DNA of 58,519 nucleotides from Candidatus Omnitrophota bacterium (GTDB taxonomy: Bacteria; Omnitrophota; Gorgyraeia; Zapsychrales; Zapsychraceae), in assembly GCA_028280285.1 (NCBI GenBank), contig JANQMA010000011.1:1-58519 (forward strand). The letters run 5' to 3'. Position numbers and translations under genes: made by a program. Positions 4,303 to 53,013 of the stretch are shown here, piece by piece; within the stretch, counting starts at the first letter, position 1; every line of letters starts with the position of its first letter. A model generated the notes under the pieces. The model did not search any database, had not been told where the DNA came from, and worked only from the letters and a program-made list of their open reading frames with translations.

Positions 4303-4362
4303 TATTTAGTCGTTAGTAATTTGTAATTGGTCGACCAATTACTAACTACCAATTACCAAATA
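4303..4362. repeat. Intergenic hairpin made of degenerate ~7-nt words (W1)
   Basis: Arms tatttagtcgttagtaatttgtaattggtc / gaccaattactaactaccaattaccaaata, 24 of 30 positions complementary; words TTAGTCG TTAGTAA TTTGTAA and ACCAATT ACTAACT ACCAATT. Confidence 0.8.
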
Positions 4363-8874: not shown

Positions 8875-8952
8875 CTATTTGTCGACGAGAGATAAAAATG
8901 GTCAGAAAAATAATGGATAAATAGGGTTGCCTGCGTAAGGTAAAAAAATAAA

Positions 8953-9010
8953 CTTGGGGACACTCTCAAAATGGGCGCTTTAAATGCGCCCCGTTTGAGG
9001 GTGTCCCCAG
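8953..9010. repeat. REP-like inverted repeat with GGGGACAC arm ends, adjacent to plsY stop
   Basis: cttggggacactctcaaaatgggcgc ... gcgccccgtttgagggtgtccccag. Confidence 0.8.
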
Positions 9011-18157: not shown

Positions 18158-18165
18158 ATTATCTT

Positions 18166-18241
18166 GAATTAAGGGGACACAATACTTAATTATTTGGACA
18201 CTACCGCCAATTATTAATTAAGTATTGTGTCCCCTTAATTC
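18166..18241. repeat. GGGGACAC inverted repeat, copy 1
   Basis: gaattaaggggacacaatacttaatta ... taattaagtattgtgtccccttaattc; fills the pheA-hisC gap and abuts the pheA stop codon. Confidence 0.95.
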
Positions 18242-19296
18242 TATACCGGATATGACCCGACCACTTTTAAGTATTTACACATACTATCGAGCTGATCGAG
18301 TGCTTTTGTTACATTCTTACTATTACGGTGCCCTTCAAAATCAACGAAGAAATAATAATCCCATGCACGTTTTTTGGAAGGGCGCGATTCAATTTTGGTC
18401 AAATTTATCTTATTCTGTCTAAACGGAACAAGCATATCGTGCAAAGCGCCTACCTTGTCTTTAATCGAAAATAAAATAGATGTTCGGTCTTTGCCTGTCG
18501 GCGGAACATCCTGATCCGAAACAACGAGAAAACGTGTCGCATTATGCGCAACATCTTCAATATTGGCCTTTAAAATAGGCACTTCATAGACCTTAGCGGC
18601 CAGGCTTGAGGCGATCGCCGCGGCAAACTTTTGTTTAGATGCTTTCTGTGCCGCTTCTGTTGTCGATGCCATTAAAATTTGTCCGGCATCAGGCAGATTC
18701 TGCGCCAACCAGTTGCGACACTGACCAAACACCATTGGATTAGAATAAATATTTTTAACATCCTTTAAATTACATTTCGCCATAATATTATGCGAAATCT
18801 TAAGCAGAATCTGCGCACAAATTCTTAAATCGGAATCAACAAGAATATCAAATGTGTGTGTCACAGCCCCTTCAACCGAATTTTCAATCGGCACAACCCC
18901 GTAATCGCATTCTTTGTGCTCAACTTTTTGAAACACTTCGGAAATACTGTTGCATGAAACATACTCAACCTGCGAGCCGAACTTTTTGTTAGCCGCCATA
19001 TGCGTAAATGAGCCTTCCGTTCCCAAATAAGCGATATGCAACGATTCCTCAAGTGATAAAGAACTCGACATTATTTCACGATACACGGCCTCAAAGGCTT
19101 CATCGGTCATCGGCCCCTTATTAAGCTCCTTAAGCTTGTCTAAAACTTCTTTTTCCCTGTGTGGTGCATAAATCGGGGAGTTTTCTTGCTTTTTTAATTT
19201 ACCGATTTCAACACTCAACTTGGCCCGTTCATTGATAAATTTGACCAATTTGGCATCGAGCGCGTTAATTTTTTTTCTTAAATCATTTAAGCCCAT
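18241..19296 (-). CDS. pheA: Bifunctional chorismate mutase / prephenate dehydratase
   Basis: N-terminal chorismate mutase (LRKKINALDAKLVKFINERAKLSVEIGKLK); AYLGTEGSFTHMAA; VPIENSVEGAV; C-terminal ACT domain. Confidence 0.95.
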   Translation of the reverse strand: MGLNDLRKKINALDAKLVKFINERAKLSVEIGKLKKQENSPIYAPHREKEVLDKLKELNKGPMTDEAFEAVYREIMSSSLSLEESLHIAYLGTEGSFTHMAANKKFGSQVEYVSCNSISEVFQKVEHKECDYGVVPIENSVEGAVTHTFDILVDSDLRICAQILLKISHNIMAKCNLKDVKNIYSNPMVFGQCRNWLAQNLPDAGQILMASTTEAAQKASKQKFAAAIASSLAAKVYEVPILKANIEDVAHNATRFLVVSDQDVPPTGKDRTSILFSIKDKVGALHDMLVPFRQNKINLTKIESRPSKKRAWDYYFFVDFEGHRNSKNVTKALDQLDSMCKYLKVVGSYPV

Positions 19297-22155: not shown

Positions 22156-22545
22156 AAAACAGGCCTTCACTTAAGCCGAGTTTTGTTAACCTCTTCGCGA
22201 GGCAATGGTTATTCAACTCACTCTAAAGATCACTCTTTAGACTCTTGCAGCCTACCCGTGCATCCAAACGCGGCGGACCACCACTTTGCACCTATTTGGC
22301 ATTGCTCCATGTAGAGATTGCTCGTTTCACCCTTAATAGCGTATAGCGCATAGCGTATAGCGTATAGATCTTAAATCTAAACGCTAAACGCTTTACGCTA
22401 AACGCTAGAAAGTCTCGTCTCTGTAGCTCTAATCCTCCTCGGTTAAACGAAGAGACCAGAATTACCTGGTTACATTGTCCCTTGGAGCTCGGACTTTCCT
22501 CCCCGGACATCGCGATACCCAGGGCAACCATTATCAGCCTGTTTT
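22156..22545 (-). ncRNA. rnpB: RNase P RNA (bacterial class A-like); ends approximate
   Basis: Minus strand: GGGGAGGAAAGTCCGAGCTCC, GGGTGAAACGAGCAA, TGGAGCAATGCCAAATAGG, ACGGGTAGGCTGC, ACAAAACTCGGCTTA; P1 aaaacaggc/gcctgtttt pairs the ends. Confidence 0.96.
22337..22407. repeat. Heptad-word hairpin (W3) inside rnpB
   Basis: TAGCGTA TAGCGCA TAGCGTA TAGCGTA TAGAT-cttaa-ATCTAAACGCTAAACGCTTTACGCTAAACGCTA; arms 28 of 33 complementary. Confidence 0.95.
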
Positions 22546-23895: not shown

Positions 23896-24061
23896 GAATT
23901 AAGGGGACACAATACTTAATTATGTACTAACCGTTTCCCGCACCGGGGGCGTCTGCACCGGGCGTAATAGGGGTCAGAGCACTAATACTAATATATTAGT
24001 GCTCTGACCCCTATTATTTTTTTCTGATTTACTGTAATTAAGTATTGTGTCCCCTTAATTC
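23896..24061. repeat. GGGGACAC inverted repeat, copy 2, with a second inverted repeat nested inside (23966-24015)
   Basis: Outer gaattaaggggacacaatacttaatta/taattaagtattgtgtccccttaattc; inner aataggggtcagagcactaat/attagtgctctgacccctatt. Confidence 0.95.
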
Positions 24062-31349: not shown

Positions 31350-31539
31350 TATTGTCTACTTCTCATATATAATTAATACCTTCTTAGATTATTATTAATA
31401 AAAAGACGTGTCAATTATATTATCCTTTTTTTTCACAGTTTAATCCGTATCAAATCAAAAAGTTACATTTATTTACATTATTTGACATATTTATGCAAAA
31501 AAATACCCCACAGAATAAAAATCCCATGGGATACTAAAT

Positions 31540-31607
31540 CGTACTTGGGACTTAGACCTTAGGACTTAGGTTTCCACGATGTCCTAAGTACCAAGTCCTA
31601 AGTCCAA
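31540..31607. repeat. Heptad-word hairpin (W4)
   Basis: cgtacttgggacttagaccttaggacttaggtttccacgatgtcctaagtaccaagtcctaagtccaa; aligns ungapped with W6 at 50 of 68. Confidence 0.9.
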
Positions 31608-31613
31608 TGTAAT

Positions 31614-32813
31614 TTAACCTTCCCCCTCCATAGACGGTAGTGGCCGGTTAATTTCCACATCTGCCGCATAGTCAACACCTTCGAGCCCAAAGCCAAAAAG
31701 CCTTAAGAAATCTTTGTCATAAGTATCTAAGTCAGAGACATCCAACAGATTGTCCTGGCTGAGATTATCCCAATACCCATTAACTTCCGTTTGGATATCT
31801 TCGCGCATTTCCCAATCATCTACACGGATAAACCCATTATCATCAACCTTACCGGCATACAAACGTTCGGCAAACATGCGGTAAATCTGATGAATGCAAA
31901 GTTCTTCAACCCCCTTCGCCTGCATGACCCGCGTTAAGATAATAAAGTAAAGCGGGATAAACGGAATCGCCGAACTGGATTGCGTCACAACAGCTTTATT
32001 AACCGATATAAACGCGCGTCCGCCGACTTTATCTTTTAATTTTTTATCTAATTCTTTTGAAGTCGATTCGAGGTGGTCTTTAGCACGTCCGATTGTTCCG
32101 TTACGGTAAACAGCCGTAGTTAACTCTGGCCCAATGTAGGAGTACGCAACCGTGCGTGCGCCATCCTCCAAAGCATCGGCTTCAAGAAGCGCATCGATCC
32201 ACAGTTGCCAGTCCTCCCCGCCCATAACTTTTTGTGTTTGCGCAATATCATCATCCGTTGCAGCTTGAAGCGTCACTTCTTCTAATTGACGGGCAGCTAT
32301 ATTAATGGAAAGATTGGTATAATCTTTACCTATCGGCTTTAACACGGACTTATACACTTCCCCATTTTTCGGATCCTGACGACGGGGTGAAGCCAGACTA
32401 TAGACAACCAAATCGACTTTCCCTAAATCGTTCTTAATCGTTTCAATCACTTTCGCACGCATCTCATCGGAAAAGGCGTCGCCATTAAAACTTTTCGCAT
32501 ACATGCCTTCGGCGTGCGCTTTTTCTTCAAACGCAACCGAATTATACCACCCGGCCGAGGCCGTGCGTTTGCCGTCTGAGGCCTTCTCAAAAAAGACACC
32601 AATGGTGGCTGCTTTATTACCGCCAAACGCCGCGGCAATACGCGAAGCAAGTCCATAGCCCGTTGATGATCCGATCACTAAAACTTTTTTACCGACACTG
32701 CTCAAAGCGGGCTGAGATTTCACATAATCAATTTGATCCTGCACATGTTTAGCACACCCCTCGGGATGAGCTGTTGTGCAGATAAACCCGCGGATTTTTG
32801 GTTGGACAATCAT
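31614..32813 (-). CDS. fabV: Trans-2-enoyl-CoA/ACP reductase (FabV)
   Basis: IVQPKIRGFICTTAHPEGCAKHVQDQIDYVKSQ; VLVIGSSTGYGLASRIAAAFGGNKAATIGVFFEK; YSYIGPELTTAVYRNGTIGRAKDHLE. Confidence 0.97.
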   Translation of the reverse strand: MIVQPKIRGFICTTAHPEGCAKHVQDQIDYVKSQPALSSVGKKVLVIGSSTGYGLASRIAAAFGGNKAATIGVFFEKASDGKRTASAGWYNSVAFEEKAHAEGMYAKSFNGDAFSDEMRAKVIETIKNDLGKVDLVVYSLASPRRQDPKNGEVYKSVLKPIGKDYTNLSINIAARQLEEVTLQAATDDDIAQTQKVMGGEDWQLWIDALLEADALEDGARTVAYSYIGPELTTAVYRNGTIGRAKDHLESTSKELDKKLKDKVGGRAFISVNKAVVTQSSSAIPFIPLYFIILTRVMQAKGVEELCIHQIYRMFAERLYAGKVDDNGFIRVDDWEMREDIQTEVNGYWDNLSQDNLLDVSDLDTYDKDFLRLFGFGLEGVDYAADVEINRPLPSMEGEG

Positions 32814-32825
32814 ATTTCCTCTTTC

Positions 32826-34040
32826 TTATTTTTCAATAGACGCTTTTTTGGCAACAATCACAATACCAGATCTTGTTAAGGTAAACCGTTTTTTATCTTC
32901 CTCGTGATCGTAGCCGATCTGCATGCCTTCGGGGATAGTGACACGCTTATCAATAATGGCATTTTTAATACGCGCATTTGGGCCAACGACAACCCCTTCC
33001 ATAATAACAGAGTTTTCCACTTTTGCATTCTTACAAATGACAACATTAGGTGATAGCACCGACTTTTTCACAAAACTTGATTCAATAATACATCCGCCTG
33101 AAATAATCGAATCCACAATGGTGCGATCCTCCCCGACAATCTTTGATGGCGGGTACGGCTCATAATATGTGCGCAGTGGCCAATCTTTATCATAGATATT
33201 AAATGATGGGCTCTCGCTGACCAAATCCATGTTCGCCTGATAGTACGCATCACGCGTTCCAATATCTTTCCAATACTGAATTTCTCCCCGGTTATTAATG
33301 AACTTATGGACAAAGATTTTCTTTTTATTGGCCAACATTTGCGGAATAATATTTTTGCCAAAATCATGCTGCGAGCTATTATCTTCGGCATCACGCTTAA
33401 GCGCGTTCAACAAAGCTTCTTTATTAAAAAGATAAATCCCCATAGATGTTAGAATATTATCTTTATCCCCGGGAATCGTCTTCGGGTTTTGAGGCTTTTC
33501 TTCAAACCCGAGAAGAAAACTCTTTTTATTTATTTCAATCACACCAAACTGCGGCGACTCTTCTTTAGGCACAACACTACAGGCCACTGTCATATCGGCC
33601 CCGGACTTTATGTGATTGTTGATCAACCGTCCATAGTCCATTTTGTAAACATGATCACCGGCGACAATCAGAATTAACTCCGGATTATGATCCTCAATCG
33701 CATGAGCATTTTGATAAATAGCATCGGCCGTACCCCGGTACCATTCGGAGCTGATCTGCTGTTGCGCCGGAATAATATCAATGAATTCCCCAAGCTGGGT
33801 CGAGACCACATCCCAGCCGGCCAATAAATGTTTTTGCAGAGAAAATGATTTGTATTGCGTTAAGATGCAGATCTTACGCAAACCGGAATTAATGCAATTA
33901 CTTAAAGTAAAATCAACAATCCGGTAAATACCGCCAAACGGCACAGCCGGCTTTGTGCGGTCACGCGTTAAAGGATCCAGCCTCTCCCCGCGCCCTCCGG
34001 CCAAAACAAATGTTAAGATATCTTTTGTATTAACTGACAT
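32826..34040 (-). CDS. glgC: Glucose-1-phosphate adenylyltransferase
   Basis: FVLAGGRGERLDPLTRDRTKPAVPFGGIYRIVDFTLSNCINSGLRKI; W.RGTADAIYQN; GDHVYKMDY. Confidence 0.97.
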   Translation of the reverse strand: MSVNTKDILTFVLAGGRGERLDPLTRDRTKPAVPFGGIYRIVDFTLSNCINSGLRKICILTQYKSFSLQKHLLAGWDVVSTQLGEFIDIIPAQQQISSEWYRGTADAIYQNAHAIEDHNPELILIVAGDHVYKMDYGRLINNHIKSGADMTVACSVVPKEESPQFGVIEINKKSFLLGFEEKPQNPKTIPGDKDNILTSMGIYLFNKEALLNALKRDAEDNSSQHDFGKNIIPQMLANKKKIFVHKFINNRGEIQYWKDIGTRDAYYQANMDLVSESPSFNIYDKDWPLRTYYEPYPPSKIVGEDRTIVDSIISGGCIIESSFVKKSVLSPNVVICKNAKVENSVIMEGVVVGPNARIKNAIIDKRVTIPEGMQIGYDHEEDKKRFTLTRSGIVIVAKKASIEK

Positions 34041-34111
34041 ATTTTGTTTTTAATGTTAAATAATTGTGCGTATTGTACAACGCGCAAGGTTAATTTGCAA
34101 TATTGTCTTGC

Positions 34112-34179
34112 TCGTACTTCGTACAGCGTACTTAGTACATCGTGGATCACGAAGTACGAAGGTCGATGTGCGACGTACG
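34112..34179. repeat. Heptad-word hairpin (W5), inverted relative to W4/W6
   Basis: Reverse complement cgtacgtcgcacatcgaccttcgtacttcgtgatccacgatgtactaagtacgctgtacgaagtacga aligns ungapped with W6 at 57 of 68. Confidence 0.92.
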
Positions 34180-34190
34180 ATTTAGATTTA

Positions 34191-36398
34191 TTACTGCTCC
34201 AGTCTCTTCATCCTTTCAAGCACCTTCGGATGAGAATCATGGACGCCTTGTGCCACCTGATAGACTTCTCGCGCTAAATCAATTTGGCCCCTATCATAAA
34301 GTAAATCCGCCACCTCAAGGACTTCCTCAATATAGAGAGGTTTAATCTTTTTGATATCTTTGATCCTATTGACACCTTGTTCATATCGCTCTAATTGAAC
34401 ATCAAGCAGACCACAAAATATCTGAAACTTGCTACTCTTAGGGTTAATTTTAAGCGCACCGTCACACTGCTCTTGCGTTTTATCATACATTTTAAGTTCA
34501 TAATAGGCCTGTGCAACATCATACCGCAACTCCATATTATTCCCGAATACCAGTTTGGCCTGGCGAAATTTTTTAAACGCCTCTTCATAATTTTCCCTTT
34601 TCATCGCAATTTTCCCAAGCGTATGATACGCGAAGCCTTCACGTGGATGAATAGTAATGGCCATATCAGCCTCCTGCTCTGCCAAATCAAGCAGATTGAG
34701 ATTAAACAGCATCCGCGCACGCAGCGCGTATTGAAAACCGGGCACATTCGTAAGGCCAAGTGCGAGTAAGTCAAACTCCGGCACCTGCCACTTTTCAATA
34801 TCTATTTCAAGTTCTTCTATCCATTTTTGATTGGACGGAATATCTTTTAAATAGATAGCCGCATCATAATTAAAATAAATCAACCTCCACTCTTTGGATT
34901 TATGAAAATATTGCAAAAGTGGCGCCGGCACACCTGTTTTCCCGGCATGTAAAAATGCGGCCGTAATAGGGTATTGATTTAAGTTTTTCTCAAGCAGTTT
35001 TTTATCACCAAGCCATAGATCTTTATATTCGGTAAAAAACTTCGCACCATACAGTTCTGTCCGCCCATCGATAAAAACTTTGATAGCGGGATGCGTCCTG
35101 CCGATCAGATAAGCGCCGGAATTAAAATCATTGAGAACATTACCTTGAATTTTATGTTCAACCAGAAAGTCCACCGCTTTATAAGGGTGACTTCGTTTGC
35201 TAAACTTTCCATCATACGCCGATTTACGCTCCATCTTATCAAAGTCATAATACCCGTTGAGCCCTAAGGCAAAAATAAGCTGAAAAATCCATGCCCCAAC
35301 GACAAATTTACAAATAAGAGAAAGCATACACACTATCTTTTCAGAAACCTTGATCTTGTTATCGGAAAAATCAAGGTATTGCATATTAACCAACACAGCA
35401 AAATAGGCCATGACCGCAAAGAACACAATATTGCGTGCCGCGTTAATGGAAAAAATAAGAAATACCGCCCACATAAAAAGAGCACTGACATCAATCTTTT
35501 TAAAATTGACCATAAAGCTGAATGCGGAGATCAAAATCAAAAGTCTAAAATGAAAATAAGGCCGCATAGCAAACAGATTATCCTTGGTGATCGGCTTTTG
35601 CAGCTCAACGATATTTTCAAAAAATACCTTCGTTTCGCCACTTAAAGAGAACATAATTTTCAGTGGATACATAACCCCTTCGATAAAAAGCGGATTGACA
35701 AAACACGCGGCACTCACAACCAAAAACCCGACATGAAGTCTAACAAATTCTTCTTTTGTCAGATTGCCTGTTCTGCCCCACTCAAAAGGCAAAGGAATAA
35801 ATCTGCGCACATATTCCGCCGCCATCCCTATTAACATCATAAGCGGACCGAATATAAAAAATCCGTGCGTATTGACCCATAGCACTTGAATGAAAAAAAG
35901 CGCAAACAAAGACCATTTTTTATGCAAATGGGACGATAAAACAAAAACATAGGAGGCAAAATAAAAAAGACTGAAAAGATCAGGACGGTGCGTAAGGCGT
36001 GACTTATAGACGAGAATAACCAGCAAAAGAAGCAGCAGCGGTGTTAAGGGCCGTTCGCGGTTATAGCCCATCATAAATAGAATCGCAACGGTCGCCATAA
36101 CCACAACCGTCTGCATGTTCACAAGGCCTTGGGTACCGGCCACAAGGTAAGATAAATACGCAATGACCTGAAAAAGCCATTCATGATTGTTCCAATGTAC
36201 ACCTTGACGTGTAAATGATAAAATGTCAACCTCAGGGATAAGCCCCGTCTGGACAATATGCTTTCCAACCGCTAAATGCAGCCACAAATCAAAATCCTTT
36301 ATCTCAATACTGAGAAGGAATCCAAGAAAACTAAATAAAACCGCAATAAATATCCATGTTCCGTAGAGATTAAGCTTTTTCCAAAAGAAGTCTGACAT
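34191..36398 (-). CDS. Polytopic membrane protein with C-terminal TPR-like repeats
   Basis: About 10 hydrophobic segments, then ADMAITIHPREGFAYHTLGKIAMKRENYEEAFKKFRQA-type repeats. Confidence 0.85.
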   Translation of the reverse strand: MSDFFWKKLNLYGTWIFIAVLFSFLGFLLSIEIKDFDLWLHLAVGKHIVQTGLIPEVDILSFTRQGVHWNNHEWLFQVIAYLSYLVAGTQGLVNMQTVVVMATVAILFMMGYNRERPLTPLLLLLLVILVYKSRLTHRPDLFSLFYFASYVFVLSSHLHKKWSLFALFFIQVLWVNTHGFFIFGPLMMLIGMAAEYVRRFIPLPFEWGRTGNLTKEEFVRLHVGFLVVSAACFVNPLFIEGVMYPLKIMFSLSGETKVFFENIVELQKPITKDNLFAMRPYFHFRLLILISAFSFMVNFKKIDVSALFMWAVFLIFSINAARNIVFFAVMAYFAVLVNMQYLDFSDNKIKVSEKIVCMLSLICKFVVGAWIFQLIFALGLNGYYDFDKMERKSAYDGKFSKRSHPYKAVDFLVEHKIQGNVLNDFNSGAYLIGRTHPAIKVFIDGRTELYGAKFFTEYKDLWLGDKKLLEKNLNQYPITAAFLHAGKTGVPAPLLQYFHKSKEWRLIYFNYDAAIYLKDIPSNQKWIEELEIDIEKWQVPEFDLLALGLTNVPGFQYALRARMLFNLNLLDLAEQEADMAITIHPREGFAYHTLGKIAMKRENYEEAFKKFRQAKLVFGNNMELRYDVAQAYYELKMYDKTQEQCDGALKINPKSSKFQIFCGLLDVQLERYEQGVNRIKDIKKIKPLYIEEVLEVADLLYDRGQIDLAREVYQVAQGVHDSHPKVLERMKRLEQ

Positions 36399-36400
36399 AA

Positions 36401-37273
36401 TTATCCCTCAATAATAAAATGCCCTTTAGTTTTTTCAATCAATCGCCCCTTATCAGGAATCTTGAGATCAGTGGAGCGTTCTGTCGAACGATATTCCACC
36501 GCCGCGGTTAAAAGCTCCTGGGTATAAGGATGCAGTGGATTATCAAAAATATCATCACAGGATCCCAATTCAAGCACTTTACCTTTATACATGACCGCGA
36601 TTCTATGACAAAGACGTTTTACAACTTTTAAATTATGTGAAATAAAAAGATAAGTAATGTCATGCCTCTTTTGTATTGCCGTCAATAATTGAAGAATCTG
36701 ATCCTGAATGAGAACATCTAGAGAAGAAACGGCCTCATCCAATATTAATAATTTCGGACTCAAAATAAGCGCCCGGGCGATGGCAATGCGCTGCCTTTCC
36801 CCGCCGCTGAATTCGTGTGGATAACGGCTGAGAATATCCCCCGATAATTGCACCTCTTTAAGCAGAGATATCATTTTCTGTTCTTGCTCTGCCTCTGATT
36901 TATATTTCACTTCATCGAGGCTGATCGCTTCTTTGAGAATTTCACGCACTGTAAAACGCGGATCAAGGCTGCTGTACGGATCTTGAAAAACCATTTGCAC
37001 ACTTTTGCGCAGGGGCCGGAACTTACGATTACTCATACGGGTGATATCAGTGCCATCGAAAATGATTTGACCGGAATTAATCCCGTATAATTTGAGGATG
37101 ATCCTCGCCAAAGTTGTTTTACCACAGCCCGACTCTCCGACTAAACCGAGATTTTCCTTATGATTAATAGTGAGTGAAACATCATTCACAGCCTCTATCG
37201 CGGATTCTTTTGTACCCAATAAACTTTTTACCCCACCAAAAGTTTTATAAATATTATTCAGCTTGAGTAACAT
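36401..37273 (-). CDS. Oligopeptide/dipeptide ABC transporter ATP-binding protein (OppF/DppF-like)
   Basis: LVGESGCGKTTLARIIL; MVFQDPYSSLDPRFTVREI; FSGGERQRIAIARALILSPKLLILDEAVSSLD; NPLHPYTQELL. Confidence 0.95.
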   Translation of the reverse strand: MLLKLNNIYKTFGGVKSLLGTKESAIEAVNDVSLTINHKENLGLVGESGCGKTTLARIILKLYGINSGQIIFDGTDITRMSNRKFRPLRKSVQMVFQDPYSSLDPRFTVREILKEAISLDEVKYKSEAEQEQKMISLLKEVQLSGDILSRYPHEFSGGERQRIAIARALILSPKLLILDEAVSSLDVLIQDQILQLLTAIQKRHDITYLFISHNLKVVKRLCHRIAVMYKGKVLELGSCDDIFDNPLHPYTQELLTAAVEYRSTERSTDLKIPDKGRLIEKTKGHFIIEG

Positions 37274-38064
37274 TATTTTACCTCAACAGCCTTTAGCAAA
37301 TCTTTTGTGTATTCTTCCTGCGGCTTCTCAATAACTGTATTTGTTTTACCCGCTTCAACAACTTCGCCTTGCTTCATAACAATAACCTGATCTGACAAAT
37401 GTTTCACGAGCCCTAAATCATGAGAAACTAAAACAATAGAAAGTTTTAGCTTGCTGCGCAGATCGTGAAACAATTCAATAATTTTTGCCTGAAGCGTAAC
37501 ATCCAAACTGCTCGTCGGTTCATCCGCAATGATTAAATCAGGATCGGCCGCAATTGCCTGTGCGATCATCGCGCGCTGACGCATCCCTCCGCTCAATTGA
37601 TGTGGATAACTCATGTAAATGCGCGCAGGATCCGGCAGGCCAACAAGGTCAAACAAATGGAGTATTTTTTCTTTTCTTTGAATGACCCCTTGCTGCGTAT
37701 GAAACCGCAAAACTTCATCAATTTGATCACCAATAGTAAACACAGGGTTAAAGGCATACAACGGTTCTTGAAACACAACACCAATCTCACGACCACGGAT
37801 CTCTTGCATCTTTGATTCCGAAAAGGCCGATAAATTAAACCCTTTATAAAGTATCTGTCCGGAACTGACCTTAAGCGCAGGCGATAAAAGCTTTAAAATA
37901 GACATGCCTGTTGTTGTCTTACCTGATCCTGAACCCCCGACAAGCGCTGTCACCGACTCGGGCTCAACAGAAAAGGAAACATTCCGCACAATCTTTGCCC
38001 CTGTCTGTTTCACCTCAACCGATAGATTTTGAACAGTCACAATCGGATTAGGCATTGGCCTCAC
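37273..38064 (-). CDS. Oligopeptide/dipeptide ABC transporter ATP-binding protein (OppD/DppD-like)
   Basis: ALVGGSGSGKTTTGMSIL; VVFQEPLYAFNPVFTIGDQI; LSGGMRQRAMIAQAIAADPDLIIADEPTSSLD. Confidence 0.95.
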   Translation of the reverse strand: MRPMPNPIVTVQNLSVEVKQTGAKIVRNVSFSVEPESVTALVGGSGSGKTTTGMSILKLLSPALKVSSGQILYKGFNLSAFSESKMQEIRGREIGVVFQEPLYAFNPVFTIGDQIDEVLRFHTQQGVIQRKEKILHLFDLVGLPDPARIYMSYPHQLSGGMRQRAMIAQAIAADPDLIIADEPTSSLDVTLQAKIIELFHDLRSKLKLSIVLVSHDLGLVKHLSDQVIVMKQGEVVEAGKTNTVIEKPQEEYTKDLLKAVEVK

Positions 38065-39154
38065 CTTCTCCTTTTAAAAGCGGATCAAAACAATCACGCA
38101 ATACATCACCGACTACATTAAAACAAATCACCGTTATGAAAATAAAAAAACCAGGAATCAAAATCCATGGATGCAGTTTAATATGCGCAATCGCCATCGC
38201 ATCGGTGAGTAAATTCCCCCAACTGGCAATCGGATCTTGTATCCCAAGGCCGATCAAACTAAGCGCTGCCTCACCCAGAATATATCCCGGAATGGAAAGC
38301 ATAATCGCCACAATCGAATACGACAGTGTATGCGGCAAAATATGCCGTATAATAATTTTTAAATCGGATAATCCCAAAGTCTTGGCCGCCAAAACATATT
38401 CTCTTTGCCTAAGAGAAATCGCCATGCCGCGGATGATACGCGCAAGGCCGGCCCATCCGATAAAGGACAAAATTACCACAATCGCTAAATAAATCTGAAA
38501 CGAATTAAAACTGTCCGGCACCGCCGAACGCAGCGCAAGCATCAAATAAAATCCCGGGATCATCATAAACATCTCACACCCACGCATAATAATACTATCG
38601 ACACGCCCGCCGTAATAACCGGAAATCCCGCCGACCAAAAGACCAAGTGTAAAAGAAATACTCACACCGATAAGCCCAATGGATAGAGACACTCGTGCGC
38701 CATATAAAATACGCGAAAACAAATCCCTTCCCCTGGAGTCTGCCCCCCACAAATAGACGCGCCCGGGTGCTTCGACGCCAAATAAATGCCTATCGGTTGG
38801 AATAATCCCGAGGAATTTATATTTATCCCCTTTGACAAAAAAGCCAAAATGATATTTTTCATTGACTACTTCCGTATAAACACGTTTATGATACTCATCA
38901 AAGGTAAACGAAATACCATAGACATACGGCCATGTTAAGTTCCCATATGCATCTTTAAAATGAATCTTGCTCGGTGGTGCGTAGGAATGACTACGCACCT
39001 CAGAATCATAGGTATAAGGTGAAATAAAATCAGCAAAGACGGCCGTAAAATACAATAAGCAAAGAATACTTAAACAAAACACACCAAATTTATTTTGTTT
39101 AAACGCAGCAAAGGCGAGTGCCGTTTGATTTTTTGATTTTGAATTATTTCCCAT
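38048..39154 (-). CDS. ABC transporter permease (OppC-like; ORF track start 39196)
   Basis: FGVEAPGRVYLWGADSRGRDLFSRILYGARVSLSIGLIGVSISFTLGLLVGGISGYYGG; permease motif region near GLGIQDPIASWGNLL. Confidence 0.94.
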   Translation of the reverse strand: MGNNSKSKNQTALAFAAFKQNKFGVFCLSILCLLYFTAVFADFISPYTYDSEVRSHSYAPPSKIHFKDAYGNLTWPYVYGISFTFDEYHKRVYTEVVNEKYHFGFFVKGDKYKFLGIIPTDRHLFGVEAPGRVYLWGADSRGRDLFSRILYGARVSLSIGLIGVSISFTLGLLVGGISGYYGGRVDSIIMRGCEMFMMIPGFYLMLALRSAVPDSFNSFQIYLAIVVILSFIGWAGLARIIRGMAISLRQREYVLAAKTLGLSDLKIIIRHILPHTLSYSIVAIMLSIPGYILGEAALSLIGLGIQDPIASWGNLLTDAMAIAHIKLHPWILIPGFFIFITVICFNVVGDVLRDCFDPLLKGEGEANA

Positions 39155-40112
39155 AACGTATCCGTGGATCCGACCACGCAAGTAATATATCGGCAATCAA
39201 ATTCCCTAAAAGGAGCAACACTCCTCCCATGAGCATACTACTCATCACAAGATAAATATCTTTGGCGCGCACTGCAGTCAGCATGAGTGACCCAAGCCCG
39301 GGCCAATTACACACAATTTCAATTAAGGCCGCACCACCGAGCAAACTCGAAAGCTCATACCCGAAAAGCGTAATCAGCGGATTAATAGCATTACGCAGCG
39401 CATGCCGGTAAATAATCCGGTTTTCCGGCAGCCCCTTAGCCCTGGCCGATAGAATATATTGCTGACGTAAAACTTCCAGAAAATTCCCGCGCATAATCCG
39501 TTGCAGACTCGCGATCGAACCGAGCGATATCACCACCGTCGGTATAATCAAATGCTTGAGAAGATCAATGATCTTGCCGTACCACGGTAGATCATCGTAA
39601 TTCGCGCTATACATGCCGCCGAGAGGAATACCTCCGATCTGCGCTGCTCCATAGAGCAAAAGCATGGCCAAGAAAAAACTCGGCATGGAAAGCCCCATAA
39701 AAGAAAAAATCGATAAGGTTTTATCAATAAACTTATTGCGATGCAGTGCCGCCCATATCCCCAGCGGAATAGCCAACATCCATGTCAAAAGCATGCTGGC
39801 CAGTGAAAGGATAAATGTATTAAACAAGCGATCGGCAATAATACGGGACACCGGCACATTGTAGAAAAAGGAATACCCGAAATCTAATTTCAGAATATTT
39901 TTAAGCCAATAAAAATACTGAACCAAGACAGGTTTATCGAGTTGATATAACTCCTCATAGCGGTTGAGTGTATCCTCTGAGATCGTCGGATCAAGCCTGA
40001 GGGAATCAAAAAAATTGCCGGGCGTCATTTGCATCAAAGCAAATGTAAGAAGCGACATCACCAAAAGCAATGGAATCGCAACTAAAATTCTTTTGATAAT
40101 AAATTTAGTCAT
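39144..40112 (-). CDS. ABC transporter permease (OppB-like)
   Basis: FIIKRILVAIPLLLVMSLLTFALMQMTPG; YILSARAKGLPENRIIYRHALRNAINPLITLFGYELSSLLGGAALIEIVCNWPGLG. Confidence 0.95.
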   Translation of the reverse strand: MTKFIIKRILVAIPLLLVMSLLTFALMQMTPGNFFDSLRLDPTISEDTLNRYEELYQLDKPVLVQYFYWLKNILKLDFGYSFFYNVPVSRIIADRLFNTFILSLASMLLTWMLAIPLGIWAALHRNKFIDKTLSIFSFMGLSMPSFFLAMLLLYGAAQIGGIPLGGMYSANYDDLPWYGKIIDLLKHLIIPTVVISLGSIASLQRIMRGNFLEVLRQQYILSARAKGLPENRIIYRHALRNAINPLITLFGYELSSLLGGAALIEIVCNWPGLGSLMLTAVRAKDIYLVMSSMLMGGVLLLLGNLIADILLAWSDPRIRYGK

Positions 40113-41862
40113 TGGTTTTAATATATATCTCTTCTAGATTGTAAAACAACCCGCCATAACTCGTTGGATTGAGATTACCAAATTTATTACGCACCGCATA
40201 AAGCCTACTGGAAAGCACTGTGTAAATCAGCGGAAGCTTATCAGAGACAATACGCTGATGCTCATCGTAAAGCTCTTTGCGTTTATACGGATCAAGCTCC
40301 TGCACACCTTGAGTAAAAATATCATCAATGCGCGCCTCCCAATCAGTCGCCGGTTTTTCCTGCCGCGGGTACCACATATGCAGATTGCCGTCGGACGCCC
40401 AAACATTCTTCCCGAAATGCGGCTCCTCCCCGCCTGTGAGCCCGAGGACAATCGCATCCCACGCATACGTCGATGTTAATTTGGCCACAATATTGTTAAA
40501 CTCAAGTGTCAAAAAATTTACTTTCATCCCCAACTGTTCAAGATCAGCTTTAATGATTGATGCGATTTTTTCCCGCGCAGTGACACCGGCATTGGTGTAG
40601 AGGTTAAACTCGACCGCATTACCATCCTCATCTTCAATAATGCCGTCGCCATTACGGTCAATAAAACCTTCGGCCGCAAGTATCTGTCGGGCGCGCTCAG
40701 GATTATAATCATACTTAGTCACATCCGGATTAAAGAAAAAACCGGCACTGGGCCCCATGGAAGAGTGTTGATGATAGCCAAATCCATTCATCACAATTTC
40801 GATAATCTTATCTTTGTCAATCGCATGGGCAACGGCTTTGCGGAAATTAACATTGGTAAACCATTTCAGTTTAACCGGGTCAACAAAAGGCTCTTTGGTC
40901 TCCGGATGAACACCTCTGTTTTGATTAAAAAAGATAAAGTTACTGCCCTTGGCCGCGCCAATATCAAGCACTTCAAAATTACCTTTTTCTTCCAAAGGCT
41001 TGACCAAAGGATAATCCGATGCCCGCAGACCGATTACGTCAAGCTCACCGTCCATAAATTTAAGGACTTCAACATCCTGATTTTGGACAATCAAATAAAT
41101 AAGTTTCTCAACATAGGGAAAAGCATTGCCCTCTTCATCCTTCATCCAATAATCTTTATTACGCACGTAAACAAGGCGCTGGCCCGGCTGGTATTTCACA
41201 AGGCGGAAAGGTCCTGTCCCGATAATATCTTCCGGCGGTGTATCAATACCCCACGTAAAATTGAACTTACCCTCTTCAACCGACTTTTTTAAAATATGCT
41301 CAGGCAGGATTGATTGGCCTAAACTTTTCAAAAACGGTGCAAACCTGACAGGCAGTTTAAACTGCACTGTATAGTCATCGAGTTTGATAACCTCAAACTG
41401 TTTGCCTTCAATCGTATAAATATCTTTGGCCGAGTTAGGAACATCTTCATTAAAAATCAAATCGTTAAAAGTAAAAACCACATCATCGGCGGTTAAAAGT
41501 TCCCCATCAAACCATTTCACTCCTTTTCTTAAATAAAATATCCAGTTAAGACCTTCTTCATCAACTTCCCATGATTCGGCCAAATGCGGCAACACCTCAC
41601 CGGTAACACCATCGGATGTGGTCAAACCTTCAAACAATTTGGCGAGCACATCTGTTGTGGAGGTTTCTTTAGCTAAGACTTCGTTAAATGATTTTGGATC
41701 TGATGTTGTGGCAAGGACAATCTGCCCACCATAAGGCGGCTGGGCAAAAACGCCTGAAATAAAAATAAAAAGAAATAATTGGAAGACGCCAATTACACGC
41801 GGCAGGATTAGGAATGTATAGCGGTTTAGTTTAGTCATCACATTGGAGGTTTTGCTTGGCAA
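40105..41862 (-). CDS. ABC transporter substrate-binding protein, SBP family 5
   Basis: Signal peptide; LAESWEVDEEGLNWIFYLRKGVKWFDGELLTADDVVFTFN; FRKAVAHAIDKDKIIEIVMNGFG. Confidence 0.94.
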   Translation of the reverse strand: MPSKTSNVMTKLNRYTFLILPRVIGVFQLFLFIFISGVFAQPPYGGQIVLATTSDPKSFNEVLAKETSTTDVLAKLFEGLTTSDGVTGEVLPHLAESWEVDEEGLNWIFYLRKGVKWFDGELLTADDVVFTFNDLIFNEDVPNSAKDIYTIEGKQFEVIKLDDYTVQFKLPVRFAPFLKSLGQSILPEHILKKSVEEGKFNFTWGIDTPPEDIIGTGPFRLVKYQPGQRLVYVRNKDYWMKDEEGNAFPYVEKLIYLIVQNQDVEVLKFMDGELDVIGLRASDYPLVKPLEEKGNFEVLDIGAAKGSNFIFFNQNRGVHPETKEPFVDPVKLKWFTNVNFRKAVAHAIDKDKIIEIVMNGFGYHQHSSMGPSAGFFFNPDVTKYDYNPERARQILAAEGFIDRNGDGIIEDEDGNAVEFNLYTNAGVTAREKIASIIKADLEQLGMKVNFLTLEFNNIVAKLTSTYAWDAIVLGLTGGEEPHFGKNVWASDGNLHMWYPRQEKPATDWEARIDDIFTQGVQELDPYKRKELYDEHQRIVSDKLPLIYTVLSSRLYAVRNKFGNLNPTSYGGLFYNLEEIYIKTND

Positions 41863-41882
41863 ATCCTCAACAATACAAATGC

Positions 41883-42236
41883 TTATTCGGCAGCCTCAAG
41901 CGGTAGTGCTGTTTCTTGCTCTGGCAAATCCCCGGCCGGTATTTGCACCTCTTCAGGTATGACCACCTCGGTTGCCGCCTGTGTGGCCACCTGATCAGGC
42001 ATTAAAGACTTTCCTTTTGATGTTGATAGTACTGCGAGTGACAAACACGTAACAAAATACAATATCGCTAAAACCGTTGTGCTTTTAATCAAAAATTCAT
42101 TCGTCTGTGTTCCAAACATTGATTCGGCCGAAGCAAAACCTTCGGTCAAACCTCCACCTCTTCCTGACTGCATCAAAATAACAAGAAGCAGCAGCACACA
42201 AACAAGTACATGAATAGCAATTACAAATCCCGTCAT
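41883..42236 (-). CDS. secG: Preprotein translocase subunit SecG
   Basis: IHVLVCVLLLLVILMQSGRGGGLTEGFASAESMFGTQTNEFLIKSTTVLAILYFVTCLSLAVL. Confidence 0.93.
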   Translation of the reverse strand: MTGFVIAIHVLVCVLLLLVILMQSGRGGGLTEGFASAESMFGTQTNEFLIKSTTVLAILYFVTCLSLAVLSTSKGKSLMPDQVATQAATEVVIPEEVQIPAGDLPEQETALPLEAAE

Positions 42237-42253
42237 AACTTGCTCCTTTAATT

Positions 42254-42321
42254 CGTACTTGGTACTTCGACCTTCGTACTTCGTGGATTAGGATGTACTA
42301 AGTACGATGTACGAAGTACAA
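42254..42321. repeat. Heptad-word hairpin (W6)
   Basis: CGTACTT GGTACTT CGACCTT CGTACTT CGTGGATTA GGATGTA CTAAGTA CGATGTA CGAAGTA CAA. Confidence 0.92.
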
Positions 42322-42341: not shown

Positions 42342-43112
42342 TCACCCTGTCACTTTGCTAATGGCGCCTTTGACAATGCCTGCGAAAGAATCGCTCTTTA
42401 AACTGGCACCACCCACCAAAGCCCCGTCGATATCCGGCTGGGCAATCAATTCTTCAATATTATCCGGTTTGACACTGCCGCCGTATTGCAGACGTACAGC
42501 ACCCGAAACTTCTTCATTATACAATTCTTTTAAAAGACCACGTATATACTGATGAACCTCTTGCGCTTGATCTGGTGTGGCCGTCTTACCTGTGCCGATA
42601 GCCCAGACAGGTTCATACGCAATCACCATTGCGGCCACTTCATCCGCCGTGAAACCGCTCAAAGCGCCTGTCACATGATCGCGAACCACATCAAATGTTT
42701 GATCCCCTTCACGTTCTTCTAAACTCTCCCCGACACAAACAATCGGGATCAAACCGCTGTTTAGCGCTGCGCGGATTCTTTTATTCACTGTTTCATTTGT
42801 TTCGCCGAAATATTGACGCCTTTCTGAGTGACCAATAATCACATATTTACATCCAGCAGCTTTAATAATCGGGCCCGACATCTCGCCGGTAAAAGCCCCG
42901 GCATCTTCCCAAAACAAGTTTTGCGCGCCCAATTCGATATTCGAGTCCCGAACAACATCATTCACATCTGTCAGCGCAACCGCCACAGGACAAACAACAA
43001 TGTCAACCCCTTCGACATCGCTTACTTCACGTTTTAGTTCTGTCACAAGCTCAATGGCTTCATGTGGTGTTTTATTCAATTTCCAATTTCCTGCAATAAT
43101 AGGTGTTCTCAT
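42342..43112 (-). CDS. tpiA: Triosephosphate isomerase
   Basis: RTPIIAGNWKLNKTPHEA; VIIGHSERRQYFGE; AYEPVWAIGTGKTATPDQAQEVH; LQYGGSVKPDN. Confidence 0.98.
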   Translation of the reverse strand: MRTPIIAGNWKLNKTPHEAIELVTELKREVSDVEGVDIVVCPVAVALTDVNDVVRDSNIELGAQNLFWEDAGAFTGEMSGPIIKAAGCKYVIIGHSERRQYFGETNETVNKRIRAALNSGLIPIVCVGESLEEREGDQTFDVVRDHVTGALSGFTADEVAAMVIAYEPVWAIGTGKTATPDQAQEVHQYIRGLLKELYNEEVSGAVRLQYGGSVKPDNIEELIAQPDIDGALVGGASLKSDSFAGIVKGAISKVTG

Positions 43113-51390: not shown

Positions 51391-51477
51391 ATTATGATAT
51401 TAGTACTATTATTAGTGCTTTGAGAGGTTTAAGGATAACACAAGGCGGCTGGATCATAAAGGGATTTTTTAGGATGT

Positions 51478-51552
51478 AATTAAGGGGACACAATACTTAA
51501 TTCCTAACATAGCTAATTAAACAAATAATTAAGTATTGTGTCCCCTTAATTC
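51478..51552. repeat. GGGGACAC inverted repeat, copy 3, overlapping the 3' end of the next CDS
   Basis: aattaaggggacacaatacttaatt ... aattaagtattgtgtccccttaattc. Confidence 0.95.
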
Positions 51553-53013
51553 GATAAAATCATTAACCATAGCTGCAATAAGGATAATATAAAACGGAGC
51601 TATCGGAAAAGCATAGCGGGTAAGAATTAAAAACAAGGCGTATAATCCCATAAACCCAATGATAATCGTCATGAGCAATAATCTTACAGCATAATCATTA
51701 TTTTTTTTATCTAAAAATTGCCTGCGCCTACGCCATAAAAAGGCACAATGATACACAAAGGCGCAAATCGTCAAAACCCCCGCACCGAAACGAACGATAA
51801 AACGCACTGCCTTTTGTGAATGAATCTCGGCAAGCCATTTGGGATAGGCAACAAAACCTATTTTCGTTGATTCCCAAAAAAACATCTTGGGAAATTCAAG
51901 CAAACAAAATAAAGCATAATAGTGCGGCCTCTCTAAAATGTGGTTAATTGCAAGCTTCACCGTTTTTTTGCTTCTGTCCTTTTCTTCCGCAGATAAGTGG
52001 TCTTTTAATAAAGGCCTATTACGCCCTATATCCAAAAAATAGCGGCAGCGCTCATCTTGACACTTATCTTTTCCAGCCGCCCCAAAGTAATAGTCGCTTG
52101 CATAAAACATTGTGTAGTCACAATCAAGTCTTGAAAAGAGACTGCGGCATACGCCTTCCCCGGGAATACCGGCTAGATGCGATAAAATAATCTTCGCATT
52201 AATATCATTGGTTCTTTTGTACGTAATGCCAAAAAAGGCATAATCAAAACGGGTTGTCATTTGAAAATTACCGTTACTTTTATAGTTAGCATATTTGTAA
52301 GCAAAGACACCGGCTGATAAAACACAAAAACTAATAAAACCAACGACGATTATATTCTTACACTGACGCCATTTTCGTTTTTTTGCGCTCAAGGCTGCAT
52401 ACAAAAAGAACAAGATTAGAACAACTTTAAATACATGCTCAAAGACAGCCTTGGCAAAGGTAGCGATTAGAAAAACACTTCCCAGTAAAATACCGATATT
52501 GATTATTTGAGCTATATTTTCCGAGGAAAGCTTACCCCAAAGGCGGTACAGTATAATTATCAAAAGTAAAGCAACCGGCAACGTAACGATTTCGGAATAC
52601 AAACTAAGCGCAGCATTAAGTAATGCCGGTGACAATCCTATATAACCGACGGCAATCAGCTTAAATACCCGACGGATTTTAAGCTGCCCCATAATCCATA
52701 GAGCAAGCAATTGAGTAATTAATAGACACAGAAGTTGAAATATCTTTTGGATAATTTGAAAATCAATATTTGTTTTGGCAGCTAAAAAATGTGAAGCGGC
52801 CATGACCATTAAATAAACAGGCTCTCGATGCGGCCCGGTCTGAAAAAACCACGACCATCCTTGCTCATATAAAAGTTTGCCAGACTGCAAATAACCAATC
52901 GCATCCATTTTGATTTCCATCTGCGAGGCAAACAGCAGATAAATCCAGAAGCATAAACATATACCGAAAATAACGAGATACGATTTCTGTTTATTCATCC
53001 ATTCTAACATCAT
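51529..53013 (-). CDS. Polytopic membrane protein (glycosyltransferase-like) of the polysaccharide locus
   Basis: Many hydrophobic segments; GPHREPVYLMVMAASHFL near the N-terminus; C-terminal ELRGHNT* lies in the repeat. Confidence 0.75.
   Translation of the reverse strand: MMLEWMNKQKSYLVIFGICLCFWIYLLFASQMEIKMDAIGYLQSGKLLYEQGWSWFFQTGPHREPVYLMVMAASHFLAAKTNIDFQIIQKIFQLLCLLITQLLALWIMGQLKIRRVFKLIAVGYIGLSPALLNAALSLYSEIVTLPVALLLIIILYRLWGKLSSENIAQIINIGILLGSVFLIATFAKAVFEHVFKVVLILFFLYAALSAKKRKWRQCKNIIVVGFISFCVLSAGVFAYKYANYKSNGNFQMTTRFDYAFFGITYKRTNDINAKIILSHLAGIPGEGVCRSLFSRLDCDYTMFYASDYYFGAAGKDKCQDERCRYFLDIGRNRPLLKDHLSAEEKDRSKKTVKLAINHILERPHYYALFCLLEFPKMFFWESTKIGFVAYPKWLAEIHSQKAVRFIVRFGAGVLTICAFVYHCAFLWRRRRQFLDKKNNDYAVRLLLMTIIIGFMGLYALFLILTRYAFPIAPFYIILIAAMVNDFIELRGHNT

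Follow-up and report, generated by a model that had tools for sequence, protein, structure and literature searches.

We analyzed a 58,519-nt stretch of DNA from Candidatus Omnitrophota bacterium, hereafter the window, with which (58.5 kb) a 131-kb contig begins; the genome comprises 2.23 Mb in 50 contigs. Three hairpins in it, W4, W5, and W6 (Table 1), are intergenic, as the first-pass annotation had it, and lie roughly 6, 11, and 20 nt past a stop codon, respectively; on recomputation the ungapped identities were again 50/68 (W4/W6) and 57/68 (reverse-complemented W5/W6), and the two W4 pairs that it had singled out (10/58 and 24/44) do change from U-A to G-C relative to W6. Complementary terminal arms that give a long stem, as in elements of intervening sequences (IVSs) and their proteins (IVPs), are present in all three. 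Their loops are 5–12 nt and hold no S23/IVP ORF, so that W4–W6 could belong to an IVS/IVP family only as ORF-less members. No S23/IVP gene occurs within the window; such genes elsewhere in the genome carry the same kind of arms. W4–W6 also lack the 23S rRNA location of a classical IVS, being intergenic, and loci with the same kind of arms are found in 23S.

Table 1 Heptad hairpins of the window and the genes next to W4–W6
Feature	Position in window	Strand	Remarks
TAGTAATTGG-type heptad hairpin	4303..4362	.	Vocabulary also flanks the IVP gene of L186
TAGCGTA-word heptad hairpin	22340..22404	.	Architecture of W4–W6; vocabulary also flanks an IVP gene (G000:C22:201-512)
W4, ORF-less heptad hairpin	31540..31607	.	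Mixed words, combining two vocabularies (CGTACTT and TAGGACTT)
trans-2-enoyl-CoA reductase gene	31614-32813	-	W4 directly past its stop codon
W5, ORF-less heptad hairpin	34112..34179	.	CGTACTT words; W6 best matched when inverted
TPR-protein gene	34191-36398	-	W5 directly past its stop codon
secG	41883-42236	-	Neighbor of W6
W6, ORF-less heptad hairpin	42254..42321	.	CGTACTT words
Triosephosphate isomerase gene	42342-43112	-	Neighbor of W6

Heptad words and covariation

We searched for complementary 28-nt arms with 7-nt self-similarity required in both. In the window this heptad detector returned W4, W5, and W6 together with two hairpins made of other words (4303-4362 and 22340-22404). It returned none in 10 Markov-1 simulated windows and almost none at other lags, on which grounds chance similarity of low-complexity DNA was rejected. 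An intrinsic terminator was likewise rejected, as no T run follows the stem at W4, W5, or W6.

The three hairpins had been read as a family evolving by concerted word change under hairpin constraint, with no transposase noticed nearby and no mobile element invoked. The family itself stood: the hairpins are dispersed, their shared heptad words change together in each copy, and pattern searches and fetched stretches raise the number of heptad hairpins in the genome from three to dozens. The covariation hardly exceeded chance: eight W-like copies had 5 two-sided pairs, whereas shuffles had 3.0 ± 1.2 and reached the observed count in 49 of 500. Repeated words alone already make both arms change in step, and axes slid by 7 nt pair too, which leaves more than one pairing register. 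Covariation was therefore rejected as proof of RNA function.

Other repeats are present in the window. Near-perfect inverted repeats (AATTAAGGGGACACAATACTTAATT...AATTAAGTATTGTGTCCCCTTAATT) occur twice (18161-18250 and 51471-51560) and belong to a different repeat family that is not heptad-built. Long hairpins unrelated to heptads lie at about 23960-24020 and 8950-9010; one is near-perfect (TAATAGGGGTCAGAGCACTAATA...), and the other consists of CTTGGGGACACTCTCAAAATGGGCGC and its complement.

Word vocabularies across the genome

Genome-wide pattern matches numbered 41 for CGTACTT, 79 for TAGCGTA, and 65 for TAGGACTT, against 0–1 for the reversed patterns, and correspond to an estimated ~12, ~39, and ~22 hairpins, respectively; these copy numbers, obtained from pattern searches and fetched stretches, are lower bounds. 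The genome has at least 10 word vocabularies with a common layout of about four 7-nt words, a short center, and complementary words, the fetched stretches adding, among others, GTGATCT, AGGTGTT, TAGTAATTGG, GTTTAAA, GTTGCTA, GAGCTNG, GTTGTTG, and GATGCTA. In a sample of 98 hairpins, 70 lay between two long ORFs, with a stop codon at a median distance of 11 nt, and 24 overlapped simply called ORFs, some of them genuinely long.

TAGCGTA-type hairpins apparently lie within long ORFs, some of which share a motif, at seven loci (L090, L091, L093, L094, L095, L097, and L100), and recall the in-frame palindromic inserts of Rickettsia. At L096 (1729-1817, 4229-4315, and 5009-5105), TAGCGTA hairpins have a center of 30–40 nt containing words of another vocabulary, as if elements were nested.

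S23/IVP genes between heptad arms

Class-level relatives also have heptad hairpins, nearly all of them at lag 7, and we therefore tested S23/IVP genes as the partner. The profile PF05635 (S23, the 23S-rRNA intervening-sequence protein, IVP), to which the solved structures 2GSC and 2RLD are related, has six matches in the genome. All five complete genes (L184–L188) are flanked by complementary heptad arms, with the words GTGATC (twice), TAGTAATTGG, TAGCGTA, and GATCCTAG (once each), and the remaining match, which lies at a contig end, has a visible left heptad arm. With one locus added from each of 29 class relatives, complementary lag-7 arms were found at 32 of 34 IVP loci; lags 4, 5, 6, 9, and 10 gave 0/34 and lag 8 gave three, and none of 28 triosephosphate isomerase control loci had lag-7 arms.

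In this genome the TAGCGTA vocabulary occurs both with an IVP gene and, about 39 times, without an ORF, and ORF-less hairpins overall are many-fold more numerous than IVP copies. The genome, which is 93% complete, yielded no IVP gene with CGTACTT or TAGGACTT words, so the link of W4–W6 to IVP genes consists of family resemblance together with a locus in a relative (L191), whose IVP arms (ATCGTATTTCGTATTTAGTAC) are similar to CGTACTT words. The left arms share an invariant G column in 76 of 77 full elements and 96 of 98 hairpins; an invariant C column is rarer (39/77 full elements). Of 70 IVP genes, 63 have the same sense as the gene upstream, and the left arm lies at a median of 2 nt from the stop codon of that upstream gene.

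Distribution across phyla, plasmids, and 23S rRNA

A scan of named genomes yielded 80 IVP loci, 77 of them with enough flank for the arm test, that span Omnitrophota, Gemmatimonadetes, Alphaproteobacteria, Bacteroidetes, Patescibacteria, Clostridia, Planctomycetes, and others. Lag-7 arms were present at 53 of the 77 and lag-8 (octad) arms at 8, and about a fifth had neither 7- nor 8-nt arms at the thresholds used; flanks shifted by 1.5–2.3 kb gave one lag-7 match in 273 tests. The arms of L265, L274, L307, L318, L322, L325, and L334 consist of 8-nt words, a second and discrete word length, and give no signal at lag 7.

Five IVP loci checked with Rfam sit inside 23S rRNA and are also heptad-armed, and the classical rRNA IVS is therefore the same kind of element at another site. 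All 10 plasmid IVP loci (nine cyanobacterial, one from Azospirillum) are heptad-armed, and the phage records searched gave no IVP match. On plasmid pPg_01 of Pseudanabaena galeata (L345), an IVP element whose arms have grown to well above 10 heptads (AGCTAAA) lies between cas6 and cas4.

IVP similarity is positively correlated with arm-word similarity (r = 0.41, 66 non-redundant loci; reached by 0 of 1000 permutations). The correlation is also found within Omnitrophota (r = 0.53) and is unchanged when host G+C is controlled. Shared descent would produce it too, and it therefore demonstrates that protein and words travel together, not yet that the one binds the other.

Filled, ORF-less, and empty sites

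A plasmid of Trichormus variabilis ATCC 29413 has an IVP element between two genes, just past a stop codon, which is absent from the ~98% identical plasmids of Nostoc linckia, Aulosira laxa, and Nostoc carneum. Relative to N. linckia, the Trichormus plasmid has exactly 428 nt extra, and GTAAT, single in the empty site, flanks the insert (a 5-bp duplication). At a second plasmid site a TTCTA duplication is indicated, with one further base change, so that only the GTAAT duplication is clean. At two plasmid sites the arms and the IVP gene are missing jointly from the empty relatives, leaving 3–13 nt between the genes. A further site (site C) is full in two plasmids (L348 and L364), empty in a third (L360), and in a fourth (L359) occupied by an ORF-less hairpin with related heptad words, which is the arrangement of a miniature element (MITE): an ORF-less copy where full and empty relatives exist. 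No ORF-less hairpin insertion with a clean target duplication was seen in the filled/empty comparisons.

Within Omnitrophota, three IVP elements of one genome (G041) are missing at syntenic places of another (G047), where 1–29 nt stand in place of 434–498 nt, with a right-arm remnant at one of the three places; one ORF-less hairpin of G041 is missing from G047 as well. The pgk-tpi site of G047 was rejected as an empty site, since the right arm and the first IVP codons remain there, and it represents a decay intermediate. At the first IVP site of G041:C16 (L219), the right heptad arm contains the start codon of the fabD-like gene that follows, and the insertion therefore seems to have altered the first residues of that protein.

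Alternative explanations

The hairpins might have come first, through slippage and template switching in quasi-palindromes or as 3'-end structures kept by the host, with IVP genes landing in their loops. The known rRNA IVSs replace small loops such as tetraloops (PMC4990558), a Coxiella array that differs by one heptad between strains fits slippage, and the numerical excess of ORF-less hairpins over IVP copies points the same way. However, arms and IVP gene are missing as a whole unit at the two empty plasmid sites and likewise at two of the G047 places, and IVP protein and arm words are correlated, and we consider this order of events improbable, although less so than the other alternatives.

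We find it very unlikely that no mobile element takes part and that the hairpins are RNA devices maintained by the host at mRNA 3' ends, serving as stabilizers, as terminators, or as sites for RNase III. Their position directly past stop codons (median 11 nt) would suit such a role, and the Xanthomonas and Nostoc heptamers near stop codons are mostly transcribed and have been read as G-quadruplex repeats (PMC4692102). Against this, the W hairpins have no terminator-like site of their own, covariation is weak, elements are missing from relatives at the same place, and many unrelated words serve, so that no regulatory sequence is fixed. A terminator-like hairpin with a T tail does lie just downstream of W4 (31502-31535, - strand) and is separate from it.

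Least likely of all is a REP/REPIN-like origin, with palindromes mobilized by a REP-associated Y1 transposase: the hairpins are dispersed, intergenic, palindromic, and of high copy number, and the genome has four Y1_Tnp matches, yet none of these four loci has heptad arms within 900 nt, the arms consist of tandem 7-nt words in many vocabularies instead of one 20–40 nt palindrome tagged with GTAG/CGTC, and heptad arms belong to IVP genes instead. A reverse-transcriptase partner, as in diversity-generating retroelements with Avd, was rejected because the genome has no RVT_1 match; IVP scored 27.2 bits with the bAvd profile, below the cut-off of 40 bits.

A probable mobile family with ORF-less members

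We conclude, with a probability of roughly three in four, that W4, W5, and W6 belong, as ORF-less (miniature) members, to a mobile family of IVS/IVP elements. This reading builds on the arm architecture, the association with IVP genes, the presence/absence polymorphism, the single clean 5-bp duplication, the ORF-less version at a site that is full or empty in other plasmids, and the IVP/word correlation observed here. A full-length element measures ~430–480 nt. Its left arm has about four degenerate 7-nt words, its right arm is complementary, and between them lies a gene, usually oriented as the host genes are, that encodes the S23/IVP four-helix-bundle protein. The element occupies the gap between two genes, past the stop codon of the first and ahead of the start of the second, and the same kind of element inside 23S rRNA is the classical IVS. 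In RNA the arms would probably pair as a long stem and, on the model of rRNA IVSs, be cut by RNase III; such cutting would make an insertion cheap, whether it sits past a stop codon or in an rRNA loop that tolerates it.

We know of no DNA-joining or transposase activity of IVP. The protein may recognize the arm words and act in trans on ORF-less copies, and slippage or unequal exchange could keep the words of one arm alike.

A wider view, which we hold tentatively and at somewhat less than even odds, is that IVP elements form a distinct mobile class that crosses phyla and has no known transposase or reverse transcriptase of its own. The words, of 7 (or 8) nt, would serve an S23/IVP oligomer as repeated binding sites, the protein would co-evolve with its vocabulary as lock with key, and one genome could accommodate many vocabularies with swarms of ORF-less copies moved in trans. 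Ribosomal IVSs, cyanobacterial heptamers, Xanthomonas heptads, and the P6b stems of trnL introns would then be local outcrops of this class.

Relation to known systems

The IVSs of 23S rRNA, inserts of selfish appearance, have been known since 1990, and their mobility was only guessed. Arms of 7-nt words provide a measurable signature that ties them to IVP genes among ordinary operon genes in many phyla and also to ORF-less hairpins in large numbers. Filled and empty sites are now precisely defined, one with a 5-bp duplication, and there is a testable idea of what S23 may bind. Cyanobacterial STRRs were reportedly described by Mazel et al. in 1990 as dispersed tandem heptamers in Nostocales. 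Nostocales plasmids carry heptad-armed IVP genes, whereas STRRs were described as tandem repeats and not as arms of an element.

A close known counterpart of the full element is the 23S IVS of Coxiella burnetii, which has a 28-bp terminal stem and, upstream of its ORF, heptameric GACAGAT repeats whose number varies among strains (PMC4990558). Like the full IVP elements, it is about 430 nt long, with an S23/IVP ORF and complementary ends (28 bp being four heptads); W4–W6 differ in having no ORF, in lying between protein genes, and in the many vocabularies and high copy number within one genome. Excision of rRNA IVSs by RNase III has been shown, whereas IVS mobility has been a hypothesis (PMC4990558). 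The rRNA insertions of CPR bacteria sometimes encode IVP (PMC11270868), and a kinship of the IVP family with Avd of diversity-generating retroelements has been pointed out (PMC10053308).

Other heptamers have also been described. Rehm et al. reported GGGNATC-type heptamers near stop codons in Xanthomonas and Nostoc, with four units preferred and, in Xanthomonas, many inverted pairs, and interpreted them as G-quadruplex repeats with no mobile-element association (PMC4692102). As in the present hairpins, the units are 7 nt, typically four in number, often in inverted pairs, and located near stop codons between aligned genes, but each organism studied had a single vocabulary and no link to S23/IVP was drawn (PMC4692102). 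The P6b stem of the Nostoc trnL intron is made up of Class I (TDNGATT) and Class II (NNTGAGT) 7-nt repeats (PMC4476775). These resemble heptad arms in being degenerate 7-nt words with complementary partners, the word class having been replaced repeatedly between lineages, and differ in lying within a group I intron where no IVP gene has been reported. A tRNA paper (PMC5733544) contains nothing on heptads.

Bacterial MITEs are similar in being short, ORF-less copies with inverted repeats that occur beside full-length relatives. Here, however, no known transposase family is involved, the parent carrying IVP instead of a transposase, and the terminal repeats are tandem words and not one fixed sequence. 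REP/REPIN sequences with TnpA-REP (RAYT) share the dispersed, intergenic, palindromic, and high-copy character, and differ from the present hairpins, which have word-built arms and IVP as their partner instead of a Y1 transposase.

A search that covered a minority of the subscription papers found none in which arms of heptads were brought together with ORF-less hairpins and with IVP genes located elsewhere than in rRNA. Heptads were thus known separately in the Coxiella IVS, Xanthomonas, Nostoc, and trnL introns, and joining them is likely, although not certainly, new. The comparison suggests a common origin for the heptamer repeats of all four, and it brings several puzzles that had stood apart under a single kind of mobile element, found in many bacterial phyla.
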